From NCBI GenBank assembly GCA_023512725.1, contig JAILZB010000003.1, positions 1-58,006 on the forward strand: 58,006 bases of DNA. The letters run 5' to 3'. Shown one piece after another: positions 37,248-52,608 of this stretch. Below the pieces are notes generated by a model. The model saw nothing but the letters and a program-made list of their open reading frames with translations, was not told the origin of the DNA and made no database searches. The position numbers and the translations under genes are program-made. Numbering within the stretch: the stretch's first letter is position 1; each line of letters opens with the position of its first letter. This DNA comes from Chloroflexota bacterium. Its GTDB lineage: Bacteria; Chloroflexota; Dehalococcoidia; SpSt-223.

Positions 37248-38225
37248 GTGACTGAGACGAGGGGCGCCGTGAGGCCAAGTATAGCCGCCGAGCAAGCGAG
37301 CCTCAATGAGAAGGGGTCACCTTGCAGCGAAGGTGTCTTCCCTCCACTCCCCGAGCGGGTCGCCCAGCTGACCCAGATTGCGCGTGCTGACCTGATCGCC
37401 GCCCTCGGCTGGCTCGGTCGCGGTCCGGCGCGCTGGCTGGTGGCCCGTGCTGGCGACGCGGCGGCGGCGGCCTTTGCCCGCGACCTGCTCGCCTTCGACC
37501 AGGGGATTGCTGAGCACGGTCTAACCGCCGCTGCGCGCCAGCTCCTTGCTCGCCACGTTGGGGAGCTGCGGGTGCGCGGCCGGGAGCACCTTCCCCCTCG
37601 CGGGCCGGTGCTGCTGATCGCCAATCACCCCGGCCTGAGCGATGCCCTCGCCCTGATCGTGGCCGTCGGGGACGACACCTTGCAGCTCGTTGCGGCAGCG
37701 CGGCCGTTCTTCACTGCCCTGCCCGCCCTCAGCAAGCAGCTCATCCTGGTGGGGAACGCTGGGGAGTACGGAACTGCCCGCGCCATCCTCAGCCGCTTGC
37801 GAGCTGGAGGCCGGGTGGCGACTTTTCCTGCTGGAGCCATCGAACCTGACCCGCTGCGCCACCCAGCGGCCCTGCTCGGACCGAAGCCGTGGCTCCCACG
37901 GGTAGCGACCTTTGCCCGCCGACTGCCTGCTGTCGCCGTGATCCCTGTTGTTATTGGCGGGGTGTTGACCCCGCTCGCATTGCGACAGCCGCTGGCGCGG
38001 GTGCACTGGTCACGCGCCGCCCGGGAGCGGGCTGCGGCGATGCTCCAGGTCCTGCGCCCCTCGCTCCGACCAGCAGCGGTGCGGCTTGTTTTCGGGCCAC
38101 CCCTGCGTGAGTGGAGCCCGGAGACGCTTGATGCGACCTACCGAGCTCTCGACCAGGCCCTCCGCGCTCCCACGGGCTGGACGGTACTCCCGCTCGCCGG
38201 CGCACGCCCAGCTACGTCGAGCTGA
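37248..38225 (+). CDS. PlsC-like acyltransferase
   Basis: GPVLLIANHPGLSDALALIVAV, GGRVATFPAGAIEPDPL, VIPVVIGG. Exact start uncertain. Confidence 0.75.
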   Translation: MTETRGAVRPSIAAEQASLNEKGSPCSEGVFPPLPERVAQLTQIARADLIAALGWLGRGPARWLVARAGDAAAAAFARDLLAFDQGIAEHGLTAAARQLLARHVGELRVRGREHLPPRGPVLLIANHPGLSDALALIVAVGDDTLQLVAAARPFFTALPALSKQLILVGNAGEYGTARAILSRLRAGGRVATFPAGAIEPDPLRHPAALLGPKPWLPRVATFARRLPAVAVIPVVIGGVLTPLALRQPLARVHWSRAARERAAAMLQVLRPSLRPAAVRLVFGPPLREWSPETLDATYRALDQALRAPTGWTVLPLAGARPATSS

Positions 38226-39009
38226 TGGACGATGAGCACCAGCTCACCGGCCGCAATCTGGCGTTGGCGCGCGAGCAGCCAGCGCTCGAACGCAGTCGGG
38301 CCGACCACGGCTGCAGTCGCCTGACGGTGGAACTCCAACATCGTCTCGAGGACCACCAGCTCGTCGGCGGTATAGCCCCCCTCGCGTGCTGCGATCACCC
38401 AGTCGGAGCTGCCGATAGCGCCGAGCTGAGCGCCCGCTGCCCGGAGGGCTGCTAGGAGCCGCCGACCCGTCTGGCTGCGCTGTTCACCTGCCTGGTCCAT
38501 TGAGGCGTGGTAGGCTGCGCCAATCGTCCGGTCGAGCGCAAGGGGCGGGAACCACTCAGTCAGGCCATCGAAGTTCAGGGTTGCCCAGAAGACGCCGCCC
38601 GGCCGGAGCAGGCGCAGCAGGTCGGCGACTGCTGAGGAGAGGGGCAGCAGGTCAAGGAGGTGGTGGGCAATGACGAAGTCGAATTGGCCGCTCGCCCGTT
38701 CGGCAAGCTCCGCTAGCGAGGCCACGTCGAACTCTATCCGCCAACGCGGCGGGAGTGTTCTGAGCTGCCGGGTAGCAGCAACGAGATTGGCATCAGGGTC
38801 GACGGCAAGAAGCCGGACAGACCGCTTAGGGGAGAGCAGTCTCCAACGCAGCAAGCGCTCGACCATCGCCCCCTGGCCGCAGCCGACATCGGCGACGCTC
38901 AGGGCAGTACGACCAGCTACAGCCGCGCGTACCCACCCGACAACCCCCTGGTTGAGGGCGCGGTCATCGAGGGAGGCCTTGGCAGTGAGGTACCGCGGGT
39001 AGTCTATGG
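38138..39009 (-). CDS. Class I SAM-dependent methyltransferase
   Basis: Frame continues upstream of the track ATG (38866): DYPRYLTAKASLDDRALNQGVVGWVRAAVAGRTALSVADVGCGQGAMVERLLRW..., restoring the GxGxG-type motif I; then FDFVIAHHLLDLL...LLRPGGVFWATLNF. Start codon not resolved. Confidence 0.75.
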
Positions 39010-39339
39010 TTTCCGCTCCTGTCGCAGGCTGAGGACTAGAAAGAACACGAGCAGCAGCTCGAGCAGCTTATCGAGATAGCCGATCAGGCTGCGTTCCCCG
39101 ACAGCGACCCAGGCCAGGATCGTGATGACGGTATAGCCCAAGAAGATCCCGTGCAGCAGCTGCCGCCGCTCCGGGCCGAGCGGACGTTCGGTGAGGTAGG
39201 CGAACGCCAGGGCCAGGTAGCCGAGGCCGTTGAGAAAGAAGAGGAGGTCAGGGAGCTGGAGTAGGAGCGACCAGTGGATCAGGGCAGTTGCTACCGCGAG
39301 CAGCGCGACAATCCAGCGAACACTCTGGCGCGACATCAT
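39004..39339 (-). CDS. Small multi-pass membrane protein
   Basis: MMSRQSVRWIVALLAVATALIHWSLLLQLPDLLFFLNGLGYLALAFAYL...HGIFLGYTVITILAWVAVG...LLELLLVFFLVLSLRQERKP; four hydrophobic segments; 4-bp overlap with the GT gene. Confidence 0.7.
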   Translation of the reverse strand: MMSRQSVRWIVALLAVATALIHWSLLLQLPDLLFFLNGLGYLALAFAYLTERPLGPERRQLLHGIFLGYTVITILAWVAVGERSLIGYLDKLLELLLVFFLVLSLRQERKP

Positions 39340-40424
39340 CCCTCCTTCGCCGCCACGAGCGCGCGGAGAAACTGACGGGCCTGCTGGCCCGCCTCCTGCC
39401 ACGTTGGATGGCAATTGTAGTGGGCAAGCGCTGCCTCGCTCATCGCCGCAAGTCGCTGGCGGTCCAACAGGGAGCGGAGCGCGGTAGCGAGGCCTGCCAG
39501 GTCGTCCGGGGAGACGACGAGTCCGGAGACCCCTTCCTCGATGACGGTGCGGCCACCGCCTGCGCTCGAAACGATCGCCGGCAGCCCGAAGCCGAGCCCC
39601 TCTAGAGCCGCGATGCCGAACCCTTCGTACCACGAAGGCTGGGCGAGCACATCGTGGGTGGGAAGCAACCCCCTGAGAGTGGCATCATCCACCTGCCCGG
39701 TCAACCGTACTGCGCCTGCGAGCCCCTGACGAACGATGAGCCGCTGCAACCGCCGGACAAACGCCCGGTCACGGTCGAGTGGTCCGACGACCGTGAGTTG
39801 CCAGCTCCCGGCGGGTAGGGTCGCGAGCGCCCGGAGGAGGCCATCGAGATTCTTCCGCCGCTCGACCGTGCCGACGCTGAGGATGCGCAGTGGGCCCGGT
39901 CGGCAAGCGCGCGCCAGCACCGCGACCCGTTCCAATGGTGGGCCCAGGCGGTCGCGACCGGGTGGAACGAGGGCATTGGCCGGCTGGTCGCGGCGCCAGG
40001 CGAGCACTGCCATCCGGCTGGCTTCGGACGGGAAGAGAAAAGCTTCGACCGAATCCAGGAAGCGCGGCTCGAGCAGGCGGGTGAGCAGCCCCGTTAGGCC
40101 GGTGGGCCGTTCACACTGGCGGAGGTGATGGACGATGGCAACCACCGGCGCCCGGACCTGCCGCCGGATGAAGCGATTTGCCCAGGCGAGTGCCGAGAAG
40201 GCCAGCTCATCTTCGAGCACCACCGCTGGCTGCAGCCGTGCCAGCTGGTGGACCAGGCGCACCGCCAGGCTGCCTAGCACTGCCACTCCGAACGGGAGAA
40301 GCGGGAGGGAGATGACGATGACTTCATCGCCGGCTGCGCGGAGCTGCTCGACCAGGATCCGGTCGTAGAGATAGCCACCGGAAAGCCGGTCGAGCCGGCC
40401 GGGCAGCACGAGGGCCAGCCGCAC
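39336..40424 (-). CDS. GT4-family glycosyltransferase
   Basis: GTG 40424: VRLALVLPGRLDRLSGGYLYDRILVEQLRAAG; ILSVGTVERRKNLDGLLRAL; PSWYEGFGIAALEGLGFGLPAIVSSAGG. Confidence 0.88.
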   Translation of the reverse strand: MRLALVLPGRLDRLSGGYLYDRILVEQLRAAGDEVIVISLPLLPFGVAVLGSLAVRLVHQLARLQPAVVLEDELAFSALAWANRFIRRQVRAPVVAIVHHLRQCERPTGLTGLLTRLLEPRFLDSVEAFLFPSEASRMAVLAWRRDQPANALVPPGRDRLGPPLERVAVLARACRPGPLRILSVGTVERRKNLDGLLRALATLPAGSWQLTVVGPLDRDRAFVRRLQRLIVRQGLAGAVRLTGQVDDATLRGLLPTHDVLAQPSWYEGFGIAALEGLGFGLPAIVSSAGGGRTVIEEGVSGLVVSPDDLAGLATALRSLLDRQRLAAMSEAALAHYNCHPTWQEAGQQARQFLRALVAAKEG

Positions 40425-40425
40425 C

Positions 40426-40803
40426 TCACCGCTCCAGCCGGGCAGCCGCCCAGGCAGAGGGACTTTCCCAGACGGTGACGGTGAGAGCCCGCAGCCCGGG
40501 GCGTGCAAGACGGTCCTGTAGTGTCTCGGCCAGCACCTGTGCCAAGCGTTCAGTGCTGGGGTTGAGGCCAGCGAACTCTGGGAGGTCGTTCAGCAACCGG
40601 TCCTGGTAGCGACCCAATGCGGCTGCGAGCGCTGCCTCGACCGCAGTGATGTCGGCAAGAAACCCATGCTGGTCGAGCTGGTCGCCTTCGAGGCGGAGTT
40701 CGACACGGTAGTGGTGAGCGTGAGGCAGGTTTTCAGCGCCCCAGTCACCTCCGGTCAATGCATGCTGGCAGGTGAACTCACGCCAAACCCCAAGGGAAAA
40801 CAT
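40426..40803 (-). CDS. 6-pyruvoyltetrahydropterin synthase/QueD-like protein
   Basis: FTCQHAL and LPHAHHYRVELRLEG (zinc His set), DITAVEAALAAALGRYQDRLLNDLPEFAGLNPSTERLA, VTVWESPSAWAAARL. Confidence 0.88.
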   Translation of the reverse strand: MFSLGVWREFTCQHALTGGDWGAENLPHAHHYRVELRLEGDQLDQHGFLADITAVEAALAAALGRYQDRLLNDLPEFAGLNPSTERLAQVLAETLQDRLARPGLRALTVTVWESPSAWAAARLER

Positions 40804-41834
40804 CAGGCTTCCTCCTCGTCCGGCCCGGCCGCGGTAACGAACAGGGCCTGCAGGACCGTTGGATCACCTTGGTCGAGCTGCTGGTAGAGAGTCGGGGCAG
40901 CGGTCAGCGGTAGGCGATGCGTGATCAGCTGCTCAGGCTGAAGCATCGGCACCAGCTCCCAAGTGAACGCAGTTCGCCGCTCGCGACTCCAGCGACCGGT
41001 CAGGGCGGGCGCGATCGTACTGACCTGGCTCGCCTCGATACGCACCCGGTCGCGGTGGAACCGTCCTCCGAGGTCGAGGGAGACTGGACGGGTGCCGTAC
41101 CAAGACCCTACCAGGAGCCGGCTCTGAAAGCCGAGCAGCGTTTGGGCCAAGGCCAATCCCGCCGGCTGGCCACTCACCTCGATAACAAGGTCAGCCGCAG
41201 CCGGGCCAAGCTGTTCCTGCAGATGGGCGGACTCAGCGGGTGTTCCCGCCCACTGAGCCCCAAGGGTTGCCGACCAGCGCAGCCGCTCTGGGCGTGGATC
41301 GACGGCGGCGAGCAAGGCGAGGGGAAAGCGGGCGAGCAGCGCGATGACCAGCAGCCCGATTACCCCCTGGCCGACTACCACCACCCGTTCACCGGCCAGT
41401 GGCCGGGCATCGAGCACCAGAGTGAGCGCGGTTTCCACGCTTGGATAGAGTGCGGCTGCCTCCGGCACGAGTGCTGGCGGCACGGGGAGCAGGCTCGCGA
41501 GCGGAGCAACGAAGTGGGTGGCGTGCGGTTGGAAGGCGAAGACGCGGCGACCAAGCCAGGCGCGGTCTTCCCTTGCGCCGACGGCCACCACCCGCCCGGT
41601 CGCCGCGTAGCCGTAGCGGAACGGATACTGGGCAGGGCCAGCGAGAGCAGCCAGGGTGGTATCAAGCGGCAGGTCGGCCGGCACCGCTCCCTGGTAGGCG
41701 AGCAGCTCGCTCCCCGCGCTCACGGCTGAGCACTCGACCGCGACGAGCCCCTCCCCCGCGGCCGGTGGGAGCAGCTCCAGTGGCCGCACCTCGACGTGGC
41801 GCGGCGCCACGAACCAGAGCGCCCGGGCGATCAT
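40803..41834 (-). CDS. MDR-superfamily zinc-binding dehydrogenase-like protein
   Basis: ATG 41834 MIARALWFVAPRHVEVRPLELLPPAAGEGLVAVECSAVSAGSELLAYQG; GYAATGRVVAVG; VVVVGQGVIGLLVIALL. Confidence 0.85.
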   Translation of the reverse strand: MIARALWFVAPRHVEVRPLELLPPAAGEGLVAVECSAVSAGSELLAYQGAVPADLPLDTTLAALAGPAQYPFRYGYAATGRVVAVGAREDRAWLGRRVFAFQPHATHFVAPLASLLPVPPALVPEAAALYPSVETALTLVLDARPLAGERVVVVGQGVIGLLVIALLARFPLALLAAVDPRPERLRWSATLGAQWAGTPAESAHLQEQLGPAAADLVIEVSGQPAGLALAQTLLGFQSRLLVGSWYGTRPVSLDLGGRFHRDRVRIEASQVSTIAPALTGRWSRERRTAFTWELVPMLQPEQLITHRLPLTAAPTLYQQLDQGDPTVLQALFVTAAGPDEEEA

Positions 41835-42541
41835 CCCTGGCCTGCCAGTTCGCCCCGAACGATCAGGTCGTCCCCACAGGGCGAGACACTGAGGTTGGCA
41901 AGCCGGAGGGAGTGTCCAGTGGGTGTTGCCAGCGGCGACTCCACCGCACGCAGGCCCCCCACGAGCAGCGGCGCGATCGTGAGGATGACCTGATTGACTG
42001 AGCCCTGCGCGAGAAAGCTGGTGATGATTCGGCTGCCTCCCTCGACCATCAGCGAGTTCACGTCCGCCGCTCCGAGCCAGTCGAGCAGGGCACCGAGGTC
42101 GACCCAACCGTTGGGTAAGGCAGGGAGCGGCACTGGGCGCGCGCCGGAGCGTTCCAAAGCCTGGGCACGCCCCCGGTCGGCAGCAGCGGTCGTTGCCAGC
42201 CAGGGGCCACGCTCAGCGCGCAAGACCTGGGCGGAGAGTGGAGTCCGCAGCTGGCTATCGACGATGACGACTTGCGGGTTCGGGCCGGTGACCAGGCGGA
42301 CGGTCAGCCGGGGATTGTCGCTGATCACCGTTCCTATGCCGACCAGGATCGCATCATGGAGCGCGCGGAGCTGGTGGGTAAACTGCTGTGCCATCGGACC
42401 GCTGATGGCAAGCGGCGCCCCGCGCCGCCGGGCGATGCTCCCATCGAGGGACTGGGCGTAGCTCAGGGTGATGTAAGGACGGCCTACCTGCCGGCGATAG
42501 TCTGCCGCCTGGCTGAGCACCGCGCGAACCGTCTCGATCAC
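41831..42541 (-). CDS. RibD C-terminal-type (DHFR-like fold) reductase
   Basis: RPYITLSYAQSLDGSIARRRGAPLAISGPMAQQFTHQLRALHDAILVGIGTVISDNPRLTVR...SLMVEGGSRIITSFLAQGSVNQVILTIAPLLVGG; no deaminase domain. Confidence 0.92.
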   Translation of the reverse strand: MIETVRAVLSQAADYRRQVGRPYITLSYAQSLDGSIARRRGAPLAISGPMAQQFTHQLRALHDAILVGIGTVISDNPRLTVRLVTGPNPQVVIVDSQLRTPLSAQVLRAERGPWLATTAAADRGRAQALERSGARPVPLPALPNGWVDLGALLDWLGAADVNSLMVEGGSRIITSFLAQGSVNQVILTIAPLLVGGLRAVESPLATPTGHSLRLANLSVSPCGDDLIVRGELAGQG

Positions 42542-42649: not shown

Positions 42650-44122
42650 ATGCTGCGCCTTCTCCCCGGCACCCTCACCTCGCCTCGCCGGGGGATCTTC
42701 TTGGCCGCCTTGCCGCAGCGCGACCGGCTCGCTTGCGGGGCCCTCCTGCTGGGGGCTGCCCTCTGGGTGCTTGCTCCCTTCCCGCTGGCTGGGGGAGGCG
42801 CGGCTCTCTTCTTCCTGGGGGCCATCCTCCGGCTTGACCTTGCGCTGATTGCGGTCGTCCTGGCCTGCCCGTTCTATCTCCCCGTGGCGGCGAACCCTCT
42901 CCCCCCCAAGCCGATCGGCCCCTACCGCTTCAGCCTGCTCGAAGTGGCAACTCTGCTCTGCGGAGCGGCCTGGCTGGTGCGTGCCCTCATCGACCGGCCG
43001 GCGACGATCGACCGGCTGCGGCAGGCGGGCTGGGCGCTTGTTCCCCCGCTGCTCTTTCTGCTCGCCGCTACCCTCTCGACGCTGGCAGCCGTCAATCGGC
43101 ACGAGGCTCTGCGCGAACTCCGGACGGTGGCTATCGAGCCGGTGCTATTCGGCCTGCTGGTGCTCAGCACGCTTGACCGCCGCGGTGTCGCTCGGTTGGT
43201 GGTGGCTGGCGTCGCGCTCGGGGCTACGGTGGCCGCCTACAGCTTCTATCACTATGTGGTGGTTAGGGTCGTCGAGGAGGCTGACGGGGTCCGACGGGTG
43301 CTGGCGGTCTACCACTCCCCTAACCAGTTAGCGCTCCTCTTCGACCGGCTGCTCCCGCTCACCGTGGCCCTTGCCCTTCCGGCACCAGCCGAACCCTGGC
43401 GACGCTGGCTCCGGCGGGGTATGCCAGCCGGGGTGGCAGCAGTGATCATGGCTGGTGCGCTGGTACTCACCTACTCGCGAGGAGCCTACCTGGCGGTCGC
43501 CGTGGCGACTCTGGCCATCCTGGCCTGGCGCGGTTGGCGCTTCTTGCTGCCGGCAGTGGTTCTCGGCATGCTGGGCAGCGGCCTGCTGCTCACCCAGCTC
43601 TCGCCCGCCCGTCTCGTCTCGGAGCAGACTTCCGTCGGGCGGCTGACGCTCTGGAGCGCGGCCTGGCGGATGGTCCTGGACCACCCGCTGCTCGGCGTCG
43701 GGCCGGACAACTTTCTCTACGCCTACCGTGACCGCGGCTACCTGCCGCCGGAAGGCTGGCGCGAACCGGATACTTCTCACCCTCACAACCTGCTGCTCGA
43801 CGCTTGGCTCCGGACGGGCATCCTGGGCTTCGGCGCGCTTGCTGCTGCAGCGGCGCTGTTCTGGCGCGCTGCGGTGCGTCTGCTGCGTTCCCGTTCTGAC
43901 CCCTCCTGGCCGACGGCGCTCGCGCTCGCCGGGGGGATGCTGGCCGCGCTCACGCACGGGCTGTTCGACAACGGCTACTTTCTCCCCGACCTGGCAGTGC
44001 TGTTCTGGCTGGCCGTAGCCGGGATGGCCGTGCTGGCCCGACCGTCGGCCCCAGCAGCCCACCCAGCTCCTCCGCCAGCTTCCCCGCTCGCCGCCAGCGC
44101 GCCGCCTCCCGTGCCGCGCTAG
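42650..44122 (+). CDS. O-antigen ligase/polymerase-like membrane protein
   Basis: Many TM segments; LTYSRGAYLAVAVATL; HPLLGVGPDNFLYAYRDRGY...SHPHNLLLDAWLRTGILGF. Confidence 0.88.
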   Translation: MLRLLPGTLTSPRRGIFLAALPQRDRLACGALLLGAALWVLAPFPLAGGGAALFFLGAILRLDLALIAVVLACPFYLPVAANPLPPKPIGPYRFSLLEVATLLCGAAWLVRALIDRPATIDRLRQAGWALVPPLLFLLAATLSTLAAVNRHEALRELRTVAIEPVLFGLLVLSTLDRRGVARLVVAGVALGATVAAYSFYHYVVVRVVEEADGVRRVLAVYHSPNQLALLFDRLLPLTVALALPAPAEPWRRWLRRGMPAGVAAVIMAGALVLTYSRGAYLAVAVATLAILAWRGWRFLLPAVVLGMLGSGLLLTQLSPARLVSEQTSVGRLTLWSAAWRMVLDHPLLGVGPDNFLYAYRDRGYLPPEGWREPDTSHPHNLLLDAWLRTGILGFGALAAAAALFWRAAVRLLRSRSDPSWPTALALAGGMLAALTHGLFDNGYFLPDLAVLFWLAVAGMAVLARPSAPAAHPAPPPASPLAASAPPPVPR

Positions 44123-44333
44123 GGGTGGCGACACGAGCCAGCGCGGGTTGGCAAATCCTGGCAGGTTCGTTGGCGAGTGCTACGATTCGGGACGGATCCC
44201 GCTGGCTGCGGGCACTGGCCGGTGGGAGACTGGCCGCGCTCAGGCACGACGCCACTTGTCGCGTTCCCCTCCCAAGCCTGCCCCGCGGGGGAGCATGGCT
44301 GAGTGGGGGCGGCGACCGGAGGACAACAGACCA

Positions 44334-45299
44334 ATGCAGATCGTCATCAGCGGCGGGGCCGGGTTCATCGGTTCTCACCTGGTCGATGCCTGCCTGACCC
44401 GTGGCCACCGGGTGATCGTGATCGATAACCTGTTGACCGGGCGGCGGGAGAACCTGGCGCACCTGGCGGACCATCCCCGGCTGCGCTTCCTCGAACGTGA
44501 CGTGATCGAGCCGCTGCCAGAGGTCGAAGGCGAGCTGTATCTGCACCTGGCGAGTCCGGCCAGCCCGGTCGGCTACGCCCGCTATCCCATCGAGACGATG
44601 CTCGCGAACTCGCTTGGCACCCAGCGGCTGCTCGACCTCACCCGGCGGGACGGCGCGACCTTTCTGTTCGCCTCGACCTCCGAGGCCTACGGCGACCCGC
44701 TGGTCCACCCCCAGCCGGAGGAGTACTGGGGCAACGTCAACCCCGTCGGGCCGCGCGCCTGCTACGACGAGTCCAAGCGGTACGGCGAAGCGCTCACCGT
44801 CACATACGTGCGGCAGTTTGGCCTCGATGGGCGGATCGTCCGGATCTTCAATACCTATGGCCCGCGGAACGACCCCCGCGACGGTCGGATCGTGCCAAAC
44901 TTCATCACCCAGGCGCTGCGGGGCGAGCCGATCACGGTCTACGGGGATGGCACCCAGACCCGCTCCTACTGCTACGTCTCCGACCTGGTCGAGGGGATCC
45001 TCCGCGCTGCCCTCACCCCGGGGCTGGCGGGTGAGGTGATCAACCTCGGCAACCCGCTGGAATACTCGGCGGTCGAGCTCGCTGTCCTGATCCGACGACT
45101 GGCGGGCTCCTCCTCCCCGATCGTGCACGCGCCTCCGCGGCCAGAGGAGATCGCGCGCCGGCGCCCGGAGATCAGCAAAGCGCGGCGTCTGCTCGGCTGG
45201 GAACCCCAGGTGGGTATCGAGGAGGGCCTGCTCCAGACGATCGCCTGGTTCCGGGAGCAGCTGGCACTGCCAGCCTCCGCTGTGGTCGACGGCACGTGA
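44334..45299 (+). CDS. NAD-dependent NDP-sugar epimerase/decarboxylase (UDP-glucuronate decarboxylase-like)
   Basis: ATG 44334 MQIVISGGAGFIGSHLVDACLTRGHRVIVIDNLLTG; ASTSEAYGDPLVHPQPEEYWGNVNPVGPRACYDESKRYGEAL; RIFNTYGPRNDPRDGRIVPNFI. Confidence 0.93.
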   Translation: MQIVISGGAGFIGSHLVDACLTRGHRVIVIDNLLTGRRENLAHLADHPRLRFLERDVIEPLPEVEGELYLHLASPASPVGYARYPIETMLANSLGTQRLLDLTRRDGATFLFASTSEAYGDPLVHPQPEEYWGNVNPVGPRACYDESKRYGEALTVTYVRQFGLDGRIVRIFNTYGPRNDPRDGRIVPNFITQALRGEPITVYGDGTQTRSYCYVSDLVEGILRAALTPGLAGEVINLGNPLEYSAVELAVLIRRLAGSSSPIVHAPPRPEEIARRRPEISKARRLLGWEPQVGIEEGLLQTIAWFREQLALPASAVVDGT

Positions 45300-46864
45300 C
45301 GCTGCTGGCGCGCCCCCCTCTCGCTGCCCGCGCAAGCGCCTGGTGGCGGGCTGCGCGCGTTGAACTCGCTGATTGGTTCCTCCCACCCTGGGAACGGGGG
45401 TTGCTCTCGCCGCGGGCCACCGTGCTCGTAGGTATCGTGCTGGTGGGCCTCGCCCTCGTGATCGCGACCCAGCCGCTCCGGGTGCTGGTGGCCGGGCTGG
45501 CTGCGGCCGTCTTCTTCGTGCTCTCCCTCGTCCGTCCCGTAGTTGGGTTGGGGCTTATCCTGTTCTCGGTTCCCTTTGGAACGCTCGCGCCGGTTGACGT
45601 GCGCGGCATCACCCTCACCGCCACCGAGCCGCTGATCGGCCTGGTTACCCTTGCCTGGCTGCTGCGGGTGGCCGCAGCACGCCAGCTCGACTGGCGCTGG
45701 TCGCCGCTGGTAGTGCCGCTCGTGCTCTTTCTGCTCCTCGAGGCCCAGTCAGTGGCGGTCGCTCCGGCGTTCACGCTAGCGGCAAAAGAGTACGCCAAGT
45801 GGCTGGAAGCGCTGGCGCTGCTCGTGGTGACGGCGCAGGTCGTGCGTCGGCAGGAGCAGGTCGTGTTTCTGGTTGCCTGCCTGCTCGGCGCGGGGACGCT
45901 AGCTGCCCTGCAGGGGTGGTACCAGTTCTTCTTCCGCCAGGGGCCGGAGGGGTTCCTCATTGCTGAACGGTTCATCCGGGCCTATGGCGAGTTCGGTCAA
46001 CCGAACCCGTACGCTGGCTTCTTGAACCTCAGCCTCCCGTTTGCCCTGGCTGTGCTGCTGGTCGCCTTGCTCCGCCCACCGGCGGCCCGTGGGAGAGCGC
46101 CGCAGGCGCTGCTCCTCGCGGTAGCCGGCGTGGCAGGGGTCATTGCAGCGGCCGAAGCGATGACCTTCTCCCGGGCGGCGTGGCTGGGCCTGGCGGTGGC
46201 CGTCGTGGCAATGCTGGCGGTCTGCAGCCGGCGCACCCTCGGACTCCTGCTCGGTGGGCTCACGGTGGGGTTGGTCATCTGGCTCCTGGGCGCGCTCGAC
46301 CTGCTCCCCGCGGTGGCGCTCGAGCGGTTACGGCCGCTCGCCGAGAGTGTCAGTCTCTTTGACGTCAGCGCAGTGGAGCTGACGCCGGAGAACTGGTCGG
46401 TCGTCGAGCGCGTCGTCACCTGGCAGACGGCGCTTGAGATGGCCGCGACGAACCCCTGGTACGGCATTGGGCCGGGAAGCTTTCAGGTCCGCTGGCCCGA
46501 GTTTGCCCCGCTCGAGTGGGTCTTGCGCGGGTCCAACCCGCCCCACGCCCATAACTTCTACCTGAACCAGCTGGCCGAGAGCGGGATCATCGGCCTGGCG
46601 GCCTATCTCATCCTCATCGGGGCGGCCTTCGCCTATACTACCGTCCGGGTCCGAGCGGCCCAGCGGCTCGGTCGCTGGCAAGGGCATCTCCTTGCTCACC
46701 CGTTCGCGCTTGCGCTCGGGCTGCTCGGGGTGCTGCTTGCACTTTCGGTGCACAACGTGTTCGATGCGCTCTTCGTCCATGGGATGACAGCCCAACTTGG
46801 GTTGACACTTGGGCTCGTCGAAGCGAGCTGGCAGGCCCGAGCACAACACGCCGAGGGGGCATGA
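45296..46864 (+). CDS. O-antigen ligase/polymerase-like membrane protein (second copy)
   Basis: GTG start overlapping the epimerase stop; AYGEFGQPNPYAGFLNLSLPFALA; EAMTFSRAAWLGLAVAV; NPWYGIGPGSFQVRW...PPHAHNFYLNQLAESGIIG. Confidence 0.9.
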   Translation: MTLLARPPLAARASAWWRAARVELADWFLPPWERGLLSPRATVLVGIVLVGLALVIATQPLRVLVAGLAAAVFFVLSLVRPVVGLGLILFSVPFGTLAPVDVRGITLTATEPLIGLVTLAWLLRVAAARQLDWRWSPLVVPLVLFLLLEAQSVAVAPAFTLAAKEYAKWLEALALLVVTAQVVRRQEQVVFLVACLLGAGTLAALQGWYQFFFRQGPEGFLIAERFIRAYGEFGQPNPYAGFLNLSLPFALAVLLVALLRPPAARGRAPQALLLAVAGVAGVIAAAEAMTFSRAAWLGLAVAVVAMLAVCSRRTLGLLLGGLTVGLVIWLLGALDLLPAVALERLRPLAESVSLFDVSAVELTPENWSVVERVVTWQTALEMAATNPWYGIGPGSFQVRWPEFAPLEWVLRGSNPPHAHNFYLNQLAESGIIGLAAYLILIGAAFAYTTVRVRAAQRLGRWQGHLLAHPFALALGLLGVLLALSVHNVFDALFVHGMTAQLGLTLGLVEASWQARAQHAEGA

Positions 46865-47949
46865 TCATCCGCCAGCCAAGCATGGGGCACGAGGCAGCAC
46901 CATCACTGCCGCTGACCGAGACGGCACCCCCCGAGGAAGCGAGTGGGGATCTTTCCCTGCGGCGGCGCGTCTTCCGGCTGCGGACGCTGGTCTCGTTTCT
47001 GGCGGCCGGGGCCATCCTCTGGTTCTTGGTCACCCGCCTGAACGTGAATCTGGCCGACCTCTGGGCGCAGCTGCGCCAGACCAACCTGGGCTTGTTCCTG
47101 CTGGCACTCTTCGTCTACTACCTGGGCTTTCCCCTCCGGGCCCTCCGCTGGCGATTGCTGCTGGAGCAGGTCGAGCAGAGCGACCATCGCGCCCGGGAGC
47201 GCGCGGTCCACCCGAGCGTAGCGCGGCTGAGTGAGATCCTGGTGCTGGGCTGGTTTGCCAATTGCGTCGTGCCGGCCAAGATCGGCGATTTTTACCGCGC
47301 CTACCTGCTCAAGGACGCCTGCGGGGTGAGTTTTGCGCGCACCACCGGCACGATCGTGGCCGAGCGGATGATCGACTTGATCGTCCTCTTTGTCCTGCTC
47401 TTGCTCTCGGCGGTCGGGGTCATCCGGGGAATGACGACTGACCACGCCCTGGTGACCGAGCACATCTTGCTGGTCGGCCTCGTGCTGGTGGGGCTGCTCG
47501 TCCTGGTGCTGCTCGGCCTGCGGCTGTTCGGGCGGCGGTTGGAAAGGGTGCTGCCAGCGCGGCTGGGTGGGTTCTGGTACCGCTTCCAGCACGGGATTGT
47601 CGGAAGCTTCCAGCTCCGCCAGTTCCCCCTGGTGGCCGTGCTCACGATAGCAGTCTGGCTGACTGAAGCAGGCCGCCTCTACTTCGTCAGCCAGTCGCTT
47701 GGCGTGCCGCTGGGGCTTGCGGTGATCGTGTTTGTGGCGCTGGCCAACTCGCTCCTCACCGCTGTACCAGCCACGCCTGGGGGGCTGGGTGTGGTCGAGG
47801 TAGGGGTGATCACCCTCTTTGCCCTCATCGGGGTGAGCGACGATGCCGCCGCTGCCGTGACCCTGCTCGACCGTACCATCTCCTACTGGAGTCTGATCGC
47901 CGTCGGGCTGGTCGCGTACCTGTTCGCCTTCCGCCACCGGCGGGCATGA
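46861..47949 (+). CDS. Flippase-like/lysylphosphatidylglycerol synthase TM-family protein
   Basis: YYLGFPLRALRWRLLL; LGWFANCVVPAKIGDFYRAYLLK; TIVAERMIDLIVL; ANSLLTAVPATPGGLGVVEVGV. Confidence 0.9.
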   Translation: MIIRQPSMGHEAAPSLPLTETAPPEEASGDLSLRRRVFRLRTLVSFLAAGAILWFLVTRLNVNLADLWAQLRQTNLGLFLLALFVYYLGFPLRALRWRLLLEQVEQSDHRARERAVHPSVARLSEILVLGWFANCVVPAKIGDFYRAYLLKDACGVSFARTTGTIVAERMIDLIVLFVLLLLSAVGVIRGMTTDHALVTEHILLVGLVLVGLLVLVLLGLRLFGRRLERVLPARLGGFWYRFQHGIVGSFQLRQFPLVAVLTIAVWLTEAGRLYFVSQSLGVPLGLAVIVFVALANSLLTAVPATPGGLGVVEVGVITLFALIGVSDDAAAAVTLLDRTISYWSLIAVGLVAYLFAFRHRRA

Positions 47950-49055
47950 AGGTCGCGATCGAGTACACCCCGGCCGTACGCCAGCGGGCCGGCATTGGGC
48001 GCTTTGTCCGCGAGCTGACTGCTGCCGTCCTCGCCCTGGGCGAGGAGTGCTCCGTCACCCTGGTCCTGACGCGTGACGCTCCTCCCCCTCCCCTGCCGGC
48101 CCGGGTTGTCCAGTTGCCGCTCACCGAGCGTCAGGCGCTCGTGCTCTGGCACCGCTGGCGGCTCCCCCTCCCGATCGACCGCTGGCTCGGCCCGGTCGAC
48201 CTCTTCCACGGTACCAACTTCCTGCTCCCACCCCTCCGCCGACCGCGGGCGGTCGTGACGGTGCACGACCTCAGCTTTCTGCTCTACCCCCAGTTCGCCG
48301 AGCCGGCCCTGGTGGCGTTCTTGCGGGCAGCGGTGCCACGCTCGCTCCAACGTGCTCATGCTATCTGCGCCGACTCCGCGGCCACCAAGCGCGACCTGAT
48401 CCAGCACCTGGGCGTGGCAGCGGCGCGGATCACCGTCATCCCCGGCGGGGTCGACCCCCGTTTCCGACCGGCTCCTCCCGCGGAACTGGCACAGGTCCGT
48501 CAGCGCTACCCCCTGGACCGACCCTTTCTCCTCGCCCTGGGCACGCGTGAGCCGCGCAAGAACCTGGCAGGGCTGCTGGCGGCCTATCAGCTCGTGCGCC
48601 AACGCGGCGCCACGGTGCGCCTGCTGATCGCGGGGCCACCCGGCTGGCGGGAGGCGCCTTTTGCCGCCGCGCTGGCGAGCGCTCCGTACCGCGAGGATGT
48701 CATCGCGCTCGGCTACGTCCCCGATGAGGACTTGCCGGCCTTGCTCAGCGCTTGTGCGTGCTTCGTCTACCCGAGCTTCTACGAGGGGTTCGGTCTCCCG
48801 GTGGGGGAGGCGCTCGCCTGCGGCGCACCCGTCGTTTGCTCGGCGACCAGTTCGTTACCCGAGGTAGCGGGCGAGGCTGCCTTGCTCGTTCCGCCAGATG
48901 ACCCCGCGGCCATCGCGGAGGCGATCCTGCGGGTGCTGGAGGATGAGACGCTCGCCGCCAGGCTCCGCAGCGCTGGCCCGCGCCAGGCAGCGACCTTGCG
49001 CTGGGAAGATTCCGCCCGGGCGCTCCTCGCGCTCTACCACCAGGTCGTAGCGTGA
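47946..49055 (+). CDS. GT4-family glycosyltransferase
   Basis: RQRAGIGRFVRELTAAVL; LALGTREPRKNLAGLLAAYQ; VYPSFYEGFGLPVGEALACGAPVVCSATSSLPEVAGEAALLVPPDD. Confidence 0.93.
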   Translation: MKVAIEYTPAVRQRAGIGRFVRELTAAVLALGEECSVTLVLTRDAPPPPLPARVVQLPLTERQALVLWHRWRLPLPIDRWLGPVDLFHGTNFLLPPLRRPRAVVTVHDLSFLLYPQFAEPALVAFLRAAVPRSLQRAHAICADSAATKRDLIQHLGVAAARITVIPGGVDPRFRPAPPAELAQVRQRYPLDRPFLLALGTREPRKNLAGLLAAYQLVRQRGATVRLLIAGPPGWREAPFAAALASAPYREDVIALGYVPDEDLPALLSACACFVYPSFYEGFGLPVGEALACGAPVVCSATSSLPEVAGEAALLVPPDDPAAIAEAILRVLEDETLAARLRSAGPRQAATLRWEDSARALLALYHQVVA

Positions 49056-50116
49056 AGGTCGGGCTCAGCGGGGAGTTCCTGCGCCGCCCCTGGACCGGGA
49101 GCGGGCAATACACCCTGCATCTTGCGGCGCAGCTTCGCCAGCTGCTGGGGGACCAGCAGGTAGTGCTGCTCGGCCAGGGAACGGGCAGGCCACTCGCCAA
49201 GCTCTGGTGGGAGCAGGTCGGGGTGGTCCGCGCGGCGCGCGCTGCTGGGGTGGAGCTGCTGCACGTGCCCTACTTTGGCCCGCCGCTCCGCTCTCCCCTG
49301 CCGCTGGTGGTGACCGTCCACGACCTGATCATGCTGGCGTTGCCCGAGCACCGGGGACCGCTGCTTTACCGCCTCTATACCCACCTGGCGCTGGTCGGAG
49401 CGCAGCGCGCCGACCTCGTGCTGGCGGATTCCGCCGCGACCGCCCGCGACCTCACCCGGCGCGGGGGCATTGCGTCCGCGCGCATCGCCATCGTTCCGCT
49501 CGGCTACGATGAGCGGCTGGCGGAGCCGGTCTCGAGCGAGGCGGTCGAACGCTACCGGACGCAGCGCGGGCTGCCCCCCTCCTTCGTGCTCTACCTTGGC
49601 GGGTTCGATGCGCGCAAGAACGTGCCCCTGCTGCTCCGCGCTGCCCAGCGCGGTGGTTGGCCACTCGTCATCGCTGGGGACCCCCCCCCACCCCGACCAC
49701 CGCTCTACCCCTCGCTGCCCACGACGAGCGCACGGGTGCACTGGCTCGGCCGCGTGGCGGAAGAGGAGAAACCGCTGCTTTACCGGGCAGCCAGCCTCTT
49801 CTGCTACCCGAGCCGGTACGAAGGCTTCGGCCTGCCAGTGCTGGAGGCGATGGCGTGCGGGGTGCCGGTCGTGGCGGCGGCCGCGACGAGTATCCCCGAG
49901 GTGGTGGGTGAGGCTGCCGTGCTGGTGCCGCCGGACGATGAACTGGCGCTGGTAGAGGCAGTCACCGCTCTACTGGGCGACTCTGAGCGGCGCGCCGAGC
50001 TGGCCGAGCAGGGTCAGGCGCGGGCTCGCCAGTTCAGCTGGGAGCGGACGGCACGCGAGACGCTCGCTGCCTACCAGCGGGTGCTCAGCCACGCCCCGGC
50101 ACGAGTGGTAGGATAG
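49052..50116 (+). CDS. GT4-family glycosyltransferase
   Basis: VLYLGGFDARKNVPLLLRA; CYPSRYEGFGLPVLEAMACGVPVVAAAATSIPEVVGEAAVLVPPDD. Confidence 0.93.
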   Translation: MKVGLSGEFLRRPWTGSGQYTLHLAAQLRQLLGDQQVVLLGQGTGRPLAKLWWEQVGVVRAARAAGVELLHVPYFGPPLRSPLPLVVTVHDLIMLALPEHRGPLLYRLYTHLALVGAQRADLVLADSAATARDLTRRGGIASARIAIVPLGYDERLAEPVSSEAVERYRTQRGLPPSFVLYLGGFDARKNVPLLLRAAQRGGWPLVIAGDPPPPRPPLYPSLPTTSARVHWLGRVAEEEKPLLYRAASLFCYPSRYEGFGLPVLEAMACGVPVVAAAATSIPEVVGEAAVLVPPDDELALVEAVTALLGDSERRAELAEQGQARARQFSWERTARETLAAYQRVLSHAPARVVG

Positions 50117-50131
50117 CCCAGCGGAGGACGT

Positions 50132-51133
50132 GTGAGAGCGATTGTGATCGACCAGTACGGCGAGCCCGAGGTGATGCGCTGGGGAGAGGTGCCAACGCCC
50201 GAACCGGCGCCAGGCGAGATCCTGGTGCGGGTCCAGGCAGCAGGTGTCAACCAGGCCGACCTCACCGCGCGGGCCGGCCGCTATCCGGAACGTCTCCCCG
50301 TGCCGGGCATCTACTTCTATCCCCTTCGCACGCTGCCGGCGGTCGTTGGCATCGAGGCGGCCGGGGTGGTGGCAGCGCTCGGGCCTGGCGCGCGCGGCTG
50401 GCAAGTCGGCGACCGGGTCTGTGGTTTCACCGGCTCGGGGGCCTATGCCGAATACGCCACCATGCTCGACTGGGTGGCGCTGCCCATTCCGGAGGGGATG
50501 AGCTTCGTCGAAGGGGCGGCAATTCCCGTCGCTTTTCTGACCGCCTGGTTGGCGCTCTGTGAACTGATGAACGTGCGCCGCGGCGAGACCCTGCTCGTCC
50601 ACGCGGTCGGGGCAGGGGTGGGGCAGGCGATGGTCCAGTTGGGAGTGCTGCTGGGCGCCCGCGTGATCGGCACAGAAGCGGTGGATGAGAAGCTGGAGCG
50701 GGCAGCCGCGCTGGGGCTGGCGGCTGGCTGTAATGCCCGCCAGCAGGACTTCGTGGCCTGGGCGCTGGAGCAGACGGGCGGGCGCGGTGTCGATGCCCTT
50801 GTTGATACCCTCGGGGGACCCGTGTTCGCCGCGAGCCTGCGCGCGCTCGCCCTCAACGGGCGGCTCGTTCCCCTCTCGACCTCGCTCGGGGGGACGCCCG
50901 AGATCGAGCTGGGGCAGATCATTGGCAAACATCTGAAGGTGTTCGGGATGTCGGCAGCGGCCATGCTGAGCCCGGACCGGATTGCTCGCTTTCGGCGGGA
51001 AGTGCTCTCCGCGCTGCCGACCCTGCTGCGCCCGGTCGTCGACCGGGTGTTCCCGATCGAGCAAGCGGCCGCGGCCCACCGCTACCTGGCGGGTGCCACC
51101 CACTTCGGGAAAGTCGTGCTTGCGCTCCCATGA
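50132..51133 (+). CDS. Quinone oxidoreductase-like MDR alcohol dehydrogenase
   Basis: MRAIVIDQYGEPEVMRWGEVPTPEPAPGEILVRVQAAGVNQADL; VHAVGAGVGQAMVQLGVLLGARVIGT. Confidence 0.9.
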   Translation: MRAIVIDQYGEPEVMRWGEVPTPEPAPGEILVRVQAAGVNQADLTARAGRYPERLPVPGIYFYPLRTLPAVVGIEAAGVVAALGPGARGWQVGDRVCGFTGSGAYAEYATMLDWVALPIPEGMSFVEGAAIPVAFLTAWLALCELMNVRRGETLLVHAVGAGVGQAMVQLGVLLGARVIGTEAVDEKLERAAALGLAAGCNARQQDFVAWALEQTGGRGVDALVDTLGGPVFAASLRALALNGRLVPLSTSLGGTPEIELGQIIGKHLKVFGMSAAAMLSPDRIARFRREVLSALPTLLRPVVDRVFPIEQAAAAHRYLAGATHFGKVVLALP

Positions 51134-52608
51134 GCCGGATCCGTCTGCGCTGCGGTGAGCTGATCGCCTTCGATGGCCAGCGGCACCGCCTCCTCCGCAA
51201 CGTCGACCTGGTCCTGCGTGACGACCGGGTCGAAGCGATCGGTGGCCACGTGCGGGGGCCCTTCGACCGCGAGATCGATGCCAGTCGCCAGCTGGTCGCC
51301 CCGGGCTTTGTCAACCTGCACGTGCATTCTGGCTCCACTGTCCCCACGCGGCTCGTGACCGAACGGCGCTATCCGGCCCTCTTCAACGCAAGCTATCTCG
51401 CCTTTAGCCCCCGGCGGGGCGCGCGGCCGATCGGGAGCTGGGAACGCGCGGACGCCGGCGGGCTGGCCACCGCGATCGAGCTGCTCAAGGCCGGCTGCAC
51501 GACGGTCGTCGACCTTGGACAGGGCATCGACCCGGCGGCAATGGTTGCGATCTATGGTCAGCTTGGCCTCCGCGCGTACCTCGCCCCCGGGTTTCGCTCG
51601 GGCGCCCATGTCTTCGTCGCGGGACGGCTGGTGATCGATTGGCTACCCGACGAGGGGCGAGCAGCTCTGCAGCAGGCAGTCGCCTTTCTCGAGCGCTATG
51701 CTGGGAGTTACGGGGGCAGGATCCAGGGAATGCTGTTCCCCTACCAGGGCGATACCTGTAGTGACCAGCTACTGCGCGAGACGAAGACAGCCGCACGGGC
51801 GCTTGGTGTTCGCATCCAGATGCACGCCGCCCAGAGCCTCTTCGAACTGCACGAGATGGTACGGCGGACGGGGCGGACGACCATCCAGCACTTTGCGGCC
51901 CTTGGCTTCCTCGGGCCGGAGGTCATCCTGGCGCACTGCCCGTTCATCACCGGCCATCCTGCGACCGGTCTGCCGGGTGACGAAGACCTCCGCCTCCTTG
52001 CCGCGCACGGTGTGACCGTCTGCCACAACCCGACCACCCTGCTCCGGCGCGGCCATCTCCTCTGCTCGTTCGACCGCTACCGGGCAGCGGGGGTCAACCT
52101 GGCGCTCGGGACCGACCACTTCCCGCGGGACATGTTTCAGGAGATGCGACTGGCCTCGATCATGGGGAAGGTGGCAGAGGGGGACCCTGGCGCAGCCGAT
52201 TCGCTCGCGGTCTACCACGCGGCCACCATCGGCGGGGCGGATGCACTCGGTCGGCCTGACCTCGGTCGGGTGTTTCCCGGCGCCAAAGCCGACCTGATCG
52301 TGGTTGACCTCAACCGGCTGGGGGCGTTGCCCCGCCGTGACCCCGTCCAGGACCTCGTCCTCTGTGGCCAGCCGAGCGACATCCAACTCGTGATCATCGA
52401 TGGACGGGTCGTCTGCGAGCGGGGCCAGGTACCGGGGATCGATGAGGAGCAAGTGGCAGCGGCCCTCCAGACAAACGCCGAGGAGATCTACGCCAGCGTC
52501 CCGGAATGGCACGCGACTGGGGCCACGGTCGAGGAGATGGCGCCCCGCTTCCTCGAGCCGATGAGCGAATACCACTACACCCCGCCAGCGGGGTCGCAGC
52601 CACATTAG
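51130..52608 (+). CDS. Amidohydrolase (TRZ/ATZ/chlorohydrolase-like)
   Basis: QLVAPGFVNLHVHSGS; MHAAQSLFELHEM; LAHCPFITG; VCHNPTTLLRRG; NLALGTDHFPRDMFQEMRLA. Confidence 0.9.
   Translation: MSRIRLRCGELIAFDGQRHRLLRNVDLVLRDDRVEAIGGHVRGPFDREIDASRQLVAPGFVNLHVHSGSTVPTRLVTERRYPALFNASYLAFSPRRGARPIGSWERADAGGLATAIELLKAGCTTVVDLGQGIDPAAMVAIYGQLGLRAYLAPGFRSGAHVFVAGRLVIDWLPDEGRAALQQAVAFLERYAGSYGGRIQGMLFPYQGDTCSDQLLRETKTAARALGVRIQMHAAQSLFELHEMVRRTGRTTIQHFAALGFLGPEVILAHCPFITGHPATGLPGDEDLRLLAAHGVTVCHNPTTLLRRGHLLCSFDRYRAAGVNLALGTDHFPRDMFQEMRLASIMGKVAEGDPGAADSLAVYHAATIGGADALGRPDLGRVFPGAKADLIVVDLNRLGALPRRDPVQDLVLCGQPSDIQLVIIDGRVVCERGQVPGIDEEQVAAALQTNAEEIYASVPEWHATGATVEEMAPRFLEPMSEYHYTPPAGSQPH

Follow-up and report, generated by a model that had tools for sequence, protein, structure and literature searches.

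A conserved gene set around a PTPS-fold protein in bacteria and salt-loving archaea, and its predicted role in a riboflavin-branch pathway to a membrane-associated, pterin-like compound

The operon and its genes

The first 58,006 nucleotides of contig JAILZB010000003.1 (assembly GCA_023512725.1, a Chloroflexota bacterium of the class Dehalococcoidia), referred to here as the window and analyzed as one stretch, contain six minus-strand genes that run from 42541 down to 38138, with successive junctions of -4, -1, +1, -4 and -4 bp. An initial annotation, made from the sequence alone, had read these genes as a translationally coupled operon for the synthesis of a glycosylated and methylated pterin-type metabolite. 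The families, coordinates and junctions it gave were confirmed, apart from the start of the methyltransferase gene, and the gene order proved to be conserved far beyond the genus. Judged by their sequences, the six genes form a genuine operon and a single functional unit. They are listed below in order of transcription, together with a convergent neighbor.

41831..42541, minus strand: gene 1, RibD_C-type reductase, 236 aa, GTG start (PF01872, 163.6 bits, 6.7e-48; alignment with congeners and class relatives)
40803..41834, minus strand: gene 2, medium-chain dehydrogenase/reductase (MDR), BchC-like (PF00107, 27.9 bits, below cut-off; TIGR01202, below cut-off)
40426..40803, minus strand: gene 3, protein of the 6-pyruvoyltetrahydropterin synthase (PTPS) fold, non-canonical subfamily (PF01242, 94.2 bits; COG0720)
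39336..40424, minus strand: gene 4, GT4-family glycosyltransferase, GTG start (PF00534, 93.6 bits; alignment)
39004..39339, minus strand: gene 5, small membrane protein, 111 aa, about four transmembrane segments, DUF7475-like (8.4e-6, below gathering score)
38138..39007, minus strand: gene 6, class I S-adenosylmethionine (SAM) methyltransferase (PF08241, 46.3 bits; alignment)
37248..38225, plus strand: PlsC-like acyltransferase, convergent with the operon (PF01553, 27.2 bits; 88-bp overlap with the 3' end of gene 6)

The MDR, PTPS-like, GT4, membrane and methyltransferase proteins matched no curated equivalog model above its cut-off. Gene 1 passes the riboflavin-reductase domain model TIGR00227 (161.9 bits against a cut-off of 150.15) and, unlike bifunctional RibD, has no deaminase domain, PF01872 being the only domain in its 236 residues. 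In gene 4, both glutamates of the EX7E motif, E267 and E275, are invariant in the alignment.

The methyltransferase gene ends at 38138, as annotated initially; its start, placed at about 39009, is corrected to 39007, where an ATA codon shares bases with the TAG stop codon of gene 5 (ATAG). The ATAG junction is common to both other species of the genus (L029 near 8856 and L030 near 9021), and the methyltransferases of the three species are only ~47% identical. Over the 60 bases read upstream there is no usual in-frame start codon, and a start at the nearest ATG downstream would truncate SAM motif I. Translational coupling through a conserved AUA start (window 39004-39007, minus strand) is possible.

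A scan for promoters and terminators and an Rfam search of the region yielded nothing useful. No que, fol or GTP cyclohydrolase (GCH) gene adjoins the operon, consistent with the initial observation that queC, queE, queF, folate and cyclohydrolase genes are missing from its neighborhood in the window. On the divergent side, 42650-52608 (plus strand) contains two Wzy-type ligases, an epimerase, an LPG_TM protein, two GT4 proteins and further genes, is partly conserved in congeners and is probably a surface polysaccharide locus.

Distribution of the gene set and its cyclohydrolase partners

The distribution of the gene set was sampled by searching an alignment of the MDR protein alone against named genomes. 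The search returned 80 loci, from Pseudomonadota (Gammaproteobacteria among them), Chloroflexota, haloarchaea, Methanomassiliicoccaceae, Myxococcota, Thermodesulfobacteriota and Verrucomicrobiota. Together with relatives and the window these made up a set of 86 loci, in which partner genes were counted within 7 kb of the MDR gene; these loci are the top-scoring hits of the query MDR, so the frequencies apply to near relatives, and many of the contigs are short. A neighborhood search of this kind had been suggested in the initial annotation, and it recovered the predicted partners: PTPS in 80/86 loci, GT4 in 72/86, RibD_C in 68/86 and the methyltransferase in 51/86. The earlier view that the unit includes glycosyl and methyl transfer is supported. 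Further partners were GCH II (50/86), a CDP-alcohol phosphatidyltransferase (42/86), a flippase-like LPG_TM protein (37/86), a DUF7475-like protein (19/86) and an acyltransferase (7/86). The order was conserved as well, with PTPS lying within 300 bp in 64 of 71 MDR-retrieved loci.

Closer to the window, both congeners (G001 and G002) have all six genes in the same order, with 54% identity in PTPS, and three further families of the class have the set as well, in most cases lacking gene 5. In two members of the class (G005 and G006) the order is kept without gene 5; in another (G019) GT4 is reversed and no methyltransferase was matched. An MDR orthologue was found in only 9 of 296 genomes of the class, and the distribution is therefore patchy. 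Annotated plasmid records from Haloarcula, Natronorubrum, Thiodictyon, Streptomyces, Methylosinus, Rhizobium and Microbacterium carry the cluster. In the MDR tree the genus groups with Chloroflexota and haloarchaea, and MDR, PTPS and RibD_C show correlations of 0.70-0.73 between their pairwise distances. By sequence comparison the gene set is widespread in bacteria and salt-loving archaea, and the window contains a local version of it. Two incomplete arrangements were also seen. On a Natrarchaeobaculum plasmid (L125:8216-10542) a GCH IIa gene overlaps the MDR gene, the next gene is hypothetical, and the annotation shows no PTPS, GT4 or methyltransferase, possibly a reduced cluster; in a class relative (L039:6493-7563, G007:C180) a short-frame piece of RibD_C adjoins a PTPS-like gene, possibly a decayed copy.

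The cyclohydrolase found in these clusters is of the riboflavin type, GCH II, and not GCH I. It adjoins RibD_C or is fused to it in 50/86 loci and never occurs without RibD_C in them (Fisher p = 6e-9); the fusions number about 10 and include those of the class relatives G005 and G006 (L031 and L032). In four haloarchaea GCH II is replaced by GCH III (GCH IIa), whose gene overlaps the MDR gene in two of them, Natrarchaeobaculum and Haloarcula. The Streptomyces cluster contains a variant GCH II, with Met at the position of E. coli RibA Y105, plus a creatininase; all 48 of the 48 scorable other in-cluster GCH II proteins have Tyr there (E. coli RibA and QueD reference sequences supplied the numbering, the QueD sequence agreeing with the PDB alignment). 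The residue at this position decides the GCH II product, Tyr being expected of enzymes that form DARP (defined below), and GCH II enzymes with such a Met stop at a formylated intermediate, as GCH III does. The Streptomyces creatininase matches the ArfB deformylase model weakly, and in other bacteria a formamidase of the creatininase family performs the step after that intermediate in riboflavin synthesis (PMC9478397). GCH II, GCH III and the Streptomyces pair would thus represent three first steps that converge on the same predicted compound. With GCH II or GCH III beside the cluster, the GCH II product, rather than dihydroneopterin triphosphate, is the probable starting point of the pathway, and its origin as a branch of the riboflavin pathway appears highly likely.

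The genome that contains the window has its only GCH II on another contig (C111), near a longer RibD_C frame of RibD length (391 aa), and this enzyme presumably feeds the operon. The initial annotation had also asked whether queuosine and folate genes exist elsewhere in the genome. QueC lies on C220, away from the operon, and a GCH I gene lies on C34 (L034:10542-13578) with a fused tandem PTPS and a short-chain dehydrogenase (SDR) gene. Both halves of the tandem PTPS have the Asp-His pair, and only the C-terminal half has the catalytic Cys, the N-terminal half having Ala; this arrangement looks like a separate biopterin-type cluster.

The PTPS-fold protein, the dehydrogenase and the membrane partners

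The initial annotation assumed that the gene 3 product acts on dihydroneopterin triphosphate, as other PTPS and QueD enzymes do. Comparison of 87 cluster sequences argues against this. The catalytic Cys is present in 0/87, replaced by Glu in 81 and by Ala in 6, and of the E. coli D69-H70 dyad His70 is kept in 0/87 and Asp69 in 1/87, the window having Q and D at these positions. The three zinc histidines, all present in the window, are kept in 86, 81 and 82 of 87, and the pterin-anchoring Glu109 in 84/87. The window protein, whose motif is GGDWGxENxPHxHHY (GAENLPHAHHY), falls below the cut-off of the QueD equivalog TIGR03367 (49.4 against 89.25 bits). Its structural model has a mean predicted local distance difference test score (pLDDT) of 94, and the closest solved structure is 3D7J (SCO6650; TM score 0.91), to which the in-cluster PTPS of Streptomyces is closely related (E 3e-79). 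The structurally nearest T-fold families act on bicyclic pterins or purines. With its zinc ligands, its pterin-binding Glu, a new Glu and no side-chain triad, the protein would suit ring closure or side-chain cleavage.

Gene 3 shares the common fold, the zinc histidines and the substrate Glu with QueD/PTPS-I, PTPS-II and PTPS-III, and it lacks their signature motifs and Asp-His dyad. The motifs of the first two are CxxxHGH and CxxxxxHGH, respectively (PMC5041015). A QueD/PTPS-I function was rejected since CxxxHGH, the catalytic Cys and the dyad are all missing; PTPS-II, since there is no Cys in the region and the window has HAH instead of HGH; and PTPS-III, since the spacing is ExxxHxH (HAH or HSH) rather than ExxHGH, with Glu at the Cys position.

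A closer counterpart is PTPS-IV, the FGPAQ type, for which a neighborhood with PF00925 and PF01872 has been recorded (PMC5445326). PF01872 is present in the window and both families in most relatives, PF00925 not being beside the window copy. The loci share MDR, GT4, methyltransferase, CDP-alcohol phosphatidyltransferase, GCH II and RibD_C as partners, and the Cys-Asp-His triad is lost in both proteins. They differ in that PTPS-IV has Ala at the Cys position (FGPAQ) and has lost the last zinc His, whereas the window type has Glu (WGAEN) and three zinc histidines. FGPAQ was found in L127, L128, L129, L131, L132 and L145, and in a PTPS tree built on few columns the PTPS-IV rows stay together. 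These sequence features make the window type a second subfamily that shares its gene set with PTPS-IV. The initial statement that no characterized pathway has this combination of genes is upheld for the open-access text searched, with the reservation that the neighborhood of PTPS-IV with PF00925 and PF01872 was already on record. The PTPS-IV papers (PMC5445326 and PMC5041015) do not describe the full pathway, its archaeal version or the lipid enzymes of the cluster.

The best named match of gene 2 is the BchC model TIGR01202, at 63.2 bits against a cut-off of 291.25, and no match to ADH_N was found in it. The model of the protein (pLDDT 89.8) is closest to RspB and to butanediol and sorbitol dehydrogenases, which are polyol or secondary-alcohol dehydrogenases. 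In alignments to 4ILK, 6IE0 and 4CPD the catalytic-zinc ligands are absent, CG being replaced by AG and GH(E) by GY. The MDR is a candidate oxidase of a ribityl hydroxyl.

The membrane connection suggested by gene 5 became stronger with its partners elsewhere. Gene 5 scores 26.5 bits against DUF7475 (PF24287; gathering score 31.3), while two haloarchaeal in-cluster proteins score 44-47 and a third 25; its profile matches proteins in 21 loci, its hydropathy shows four segments, and DUF7475-like proteins are found in haloarchaeal and other Chloroflexota clusters. The CDP-alcohol phosphatidyltransferase and the flippase-like protein strongly co-occur (p = 9e-10, 86 loci). Homologues of the acyltransferase lie directly upstream of the cluster, in its orientation, in four Anaerolineales/Anaerolineae loci outside the genus (L074, L077, L089 and L108); in L077 a single same-strand row consists of acyltransferase, DUF7475-like protein, GCH II, RibD_C, MDR, PTPS, GT4 and methyltransferase. 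The acyltransferase is never found with the CDP-alcohol phosphatidyltransferase (0/7, Fisher p = 0.012). The convergent gene at 37248..38225 is thus a probable seventh member of the cluster. The LPG_TM protein at 46861-47949 was considered as the cluster flippase and rejected; it closely matches nothing but its counterparts in the congeners, so it was assigned to the polysaccharide locus.

Other genes were noted near clusters outside the genus. A membrane protein of ~540-550 aa related to annotated sulfatases is near the cluster in 21 loci, mostly of Gammaproteobacteria, and in Rhizobium (for example L042:4865-6505, L119:5345-6985, L131:2493-4118 and L099:13488-15116). YceI-like or cytochrome b561-like genes lie beside L048, L079, L081, L085, L086 and L114 and beside L061, L064, L112, L113, L127 and L131, and such neighbors would fit a lipid-soluble redox role. 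Taken together, DUF7475, the acyltransferase, the CDP-alcohol phosphatidyltransferase, the flippase and the sulfatase-related protein point to a product that is attached to lipid or displayed at the membrane, and we are inclined to accept such an association.

A predicted branch of the riboflavin pathway and its alternatives

We favor, with reasonable though not strong confidence, a pathway that branches from riboflavin synthesis and yields a glycosylated, methylated, membrane-associated, pterin-like compound. First, GCH II would open GTP to 2,5-diamino-6-ribosylamino-4(3H)-pyrimidinone 5'-phosphate (DARP), and second, RibD_C would reduce C1' to give the ribityl compound; the chemistry of both steps is predicted from that of the families. 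Third, the MDR would oxidize a ribityl hydroxyl. If this were the 2'-OH, the product would be the very 1-amino-1-deoxyketose made by GCH I, and it could cyclize onto the 5-amino group, forming 7,8-dihydroneopterin 3'-phosphate without GCH I. Fourth, the PTPS-fold protein, whose retained Glu would hold a 2-amino-4-oxo-pyrimidine, would catalyze the ring closure or a side-chain cleavage. Fifth, the GT4 and the methyltransferase would decorate the product, and sixth, membrane enzymes would attach or display it, with the DUF7475-like protein and the acyltransferase as candidates in the window and the CDP-alcohol phosphatidyltransferase, the flippase-like protein and the sulfatase-like membrane protein elsewhere. 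That the product is a pterin at all is a prediction, and the specific sequence of 2'-oxidation and ring closure is offered tentatively, as somewhat doubtful. Bolder still, and in our estimate rather unlikely, is the general form of this idea: a GCH I-independent route to dihydropterins in bacteria and archaea, by GCH II or GCH III and RibD_C, re-oxidation at C2' by a zinc-less MDR and closure by a PTPS-fold protein, with the glycosylated, methylated pterin serving as a membrane-anchored, lipid-bound redox cofactor.

Several points weigh against the proposed pathway. Substrate, product and activity are known for no member of the cluster. The genome's own GCH I already gives dihydroneopterin triphosphate, and a second route needs a reason. 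The MDR is without the usual catalytic zinc ligands, which leaves its reaction and direction uncertain, and PTPS-IV is without the last zinc His, so that the PTPS-fold protein is perhaps not a metalloenzyme in all versions. Haloarchaeal and some Anaerolineales clusters have no local RibD_C, and the window has neither the CDP-alcohol phosphatidyltransferase nor a cluster-type flippase.

Alternatively, the product could remain a glycosylated, methylated ribityl-diaminopyrimidine, or a lipid bearing one, with the PTPS-fold protein only binding or epimerizing it. GCH II and RibD_C would stop at the ribityl-pyrimidine, the catalytic triad for side-chain chemistry is lost, and the clusters examined contain no other recognizable ring-forming enzyme. 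However, the pterin-anchoring Glu and the zinc histidines are nearly always kept in a protein whose nearest relatives by fold use bicyclic substrates, and the alcohol dehydrogenase encoded in mid-operon must have something to act on. We regard this outcome as unlikely. A second alternative, which retains the substrate assumed initially, is that the PTPS-fold protein uses dihydroneopterin triphosphate derived from GCH I and that RibD_C reduces a pterin. GCH I is in the genome, and other PTPS families use that substrate (PMC5041015). This reading is difficult to reconcile with the loss of Cys and His in 87/87 sequences and of Asp in 86/87, with in-cluster cyclohydrolases that are GCH II or GCH III in relatives, and with a RibD_C that passes the riboflavin-reductase model; we consider it quite improbable.

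The genes might also be redundant copies from riboflavin, queuosine or F420 synthesis, brought together by coincidence. RibD_C and GCH II are riboflavin families, and a link of PTPS-IV to F420 appears in an unpublished remark (PMC5041015). Yet the genome has separate riboflavin genes (C111), GCH I, PTPS and QueC, the order with GT4, methyltransferase and lipid enzymes recurs across phyla, and the annotated clusters examined contain no other riboflavin, F420 or queuosine gene, which makes this explanation very improbable. An F420 role was rejected specifically, as neither CofG nor CofH occurs in those clusters. The deazapurine that the initial annotation had allowed as a product is likewise unlikely, with no QueC or QueE in the same clusters and the genome's QueC located elsewhere. 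Finally, chance adjacency in an exopolysaccharide locus, which the flanking polysaccharide genes (Wzy-type ligases, epimerase and GT4s) and the commonness of GT4 and methyltransferase genes on their own might suggest, is refuted for the PTPS-MDR-RibD_C-GT4-methyltransferase core by its recurrence in the same order, and away from polysaccharide loci, in genomes of two domains that are not related to one another.

The proposed riboflavin-branch pathway resembles known systems in part. The entry to riboflavin synthesis uses the same families, with parallel bacterial (GCH II RibA and RibD reductase) and archaeal (GCH III, ArfB and RibD_C) variants of the first step; in the clusters examined, however, no deaminase, RibB, RibE or RibH was seen, and the first steps are followed by MDR, PTPS-like protein, GT4 and methyltransferase. 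Glycosylated pterins are made by cyanobacteria and green sulfur bacteria, and methanopterin is both glycosylated and methylated, so that each is like the proposed product; these compounds are made by other enzymes, on dihydroneopterin routes of the GCH I or archaeal type, and we know of no GCH II-RibD_C-MDR route in their synthesis. Toxoflavin, an azapteridine, is a secondary metabolite whose biosynthesis draws on GCH II and a RibD-type enzyme and includes a methyltransferase; to our knowledge, that biosynthesis involves no PTPS-like protein, MDR or GT4. In the open-access papers searched we found no product of the cluster and no description beyond the PTPS-IV neighborhood notes. Part of the neighborhood (PTPS, GCH II and RibD_C) had been published, and the pathway context stands on solid ground, while the chemistry is predicted.

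Proteins of the cluster are usually annotated, misleadingly, as '6-carboxytetrahydropterin synthase' and 'zinc-binding alcohol dehydrogenase'. The pathway proposed here would give a role to SCO6650, whose solved structure is still listed in the PDB as uncharacterized, and would explain the Streptomyces GCH II variant with its adjoining creatininase. Owing to the gene order, every step is open to direct testing in vitro. A membrane-bound pterin, should the product be one, would represent a lipid or cofactor of a new class, and the ring closure, if correct, would amount to a second way of making pterins.

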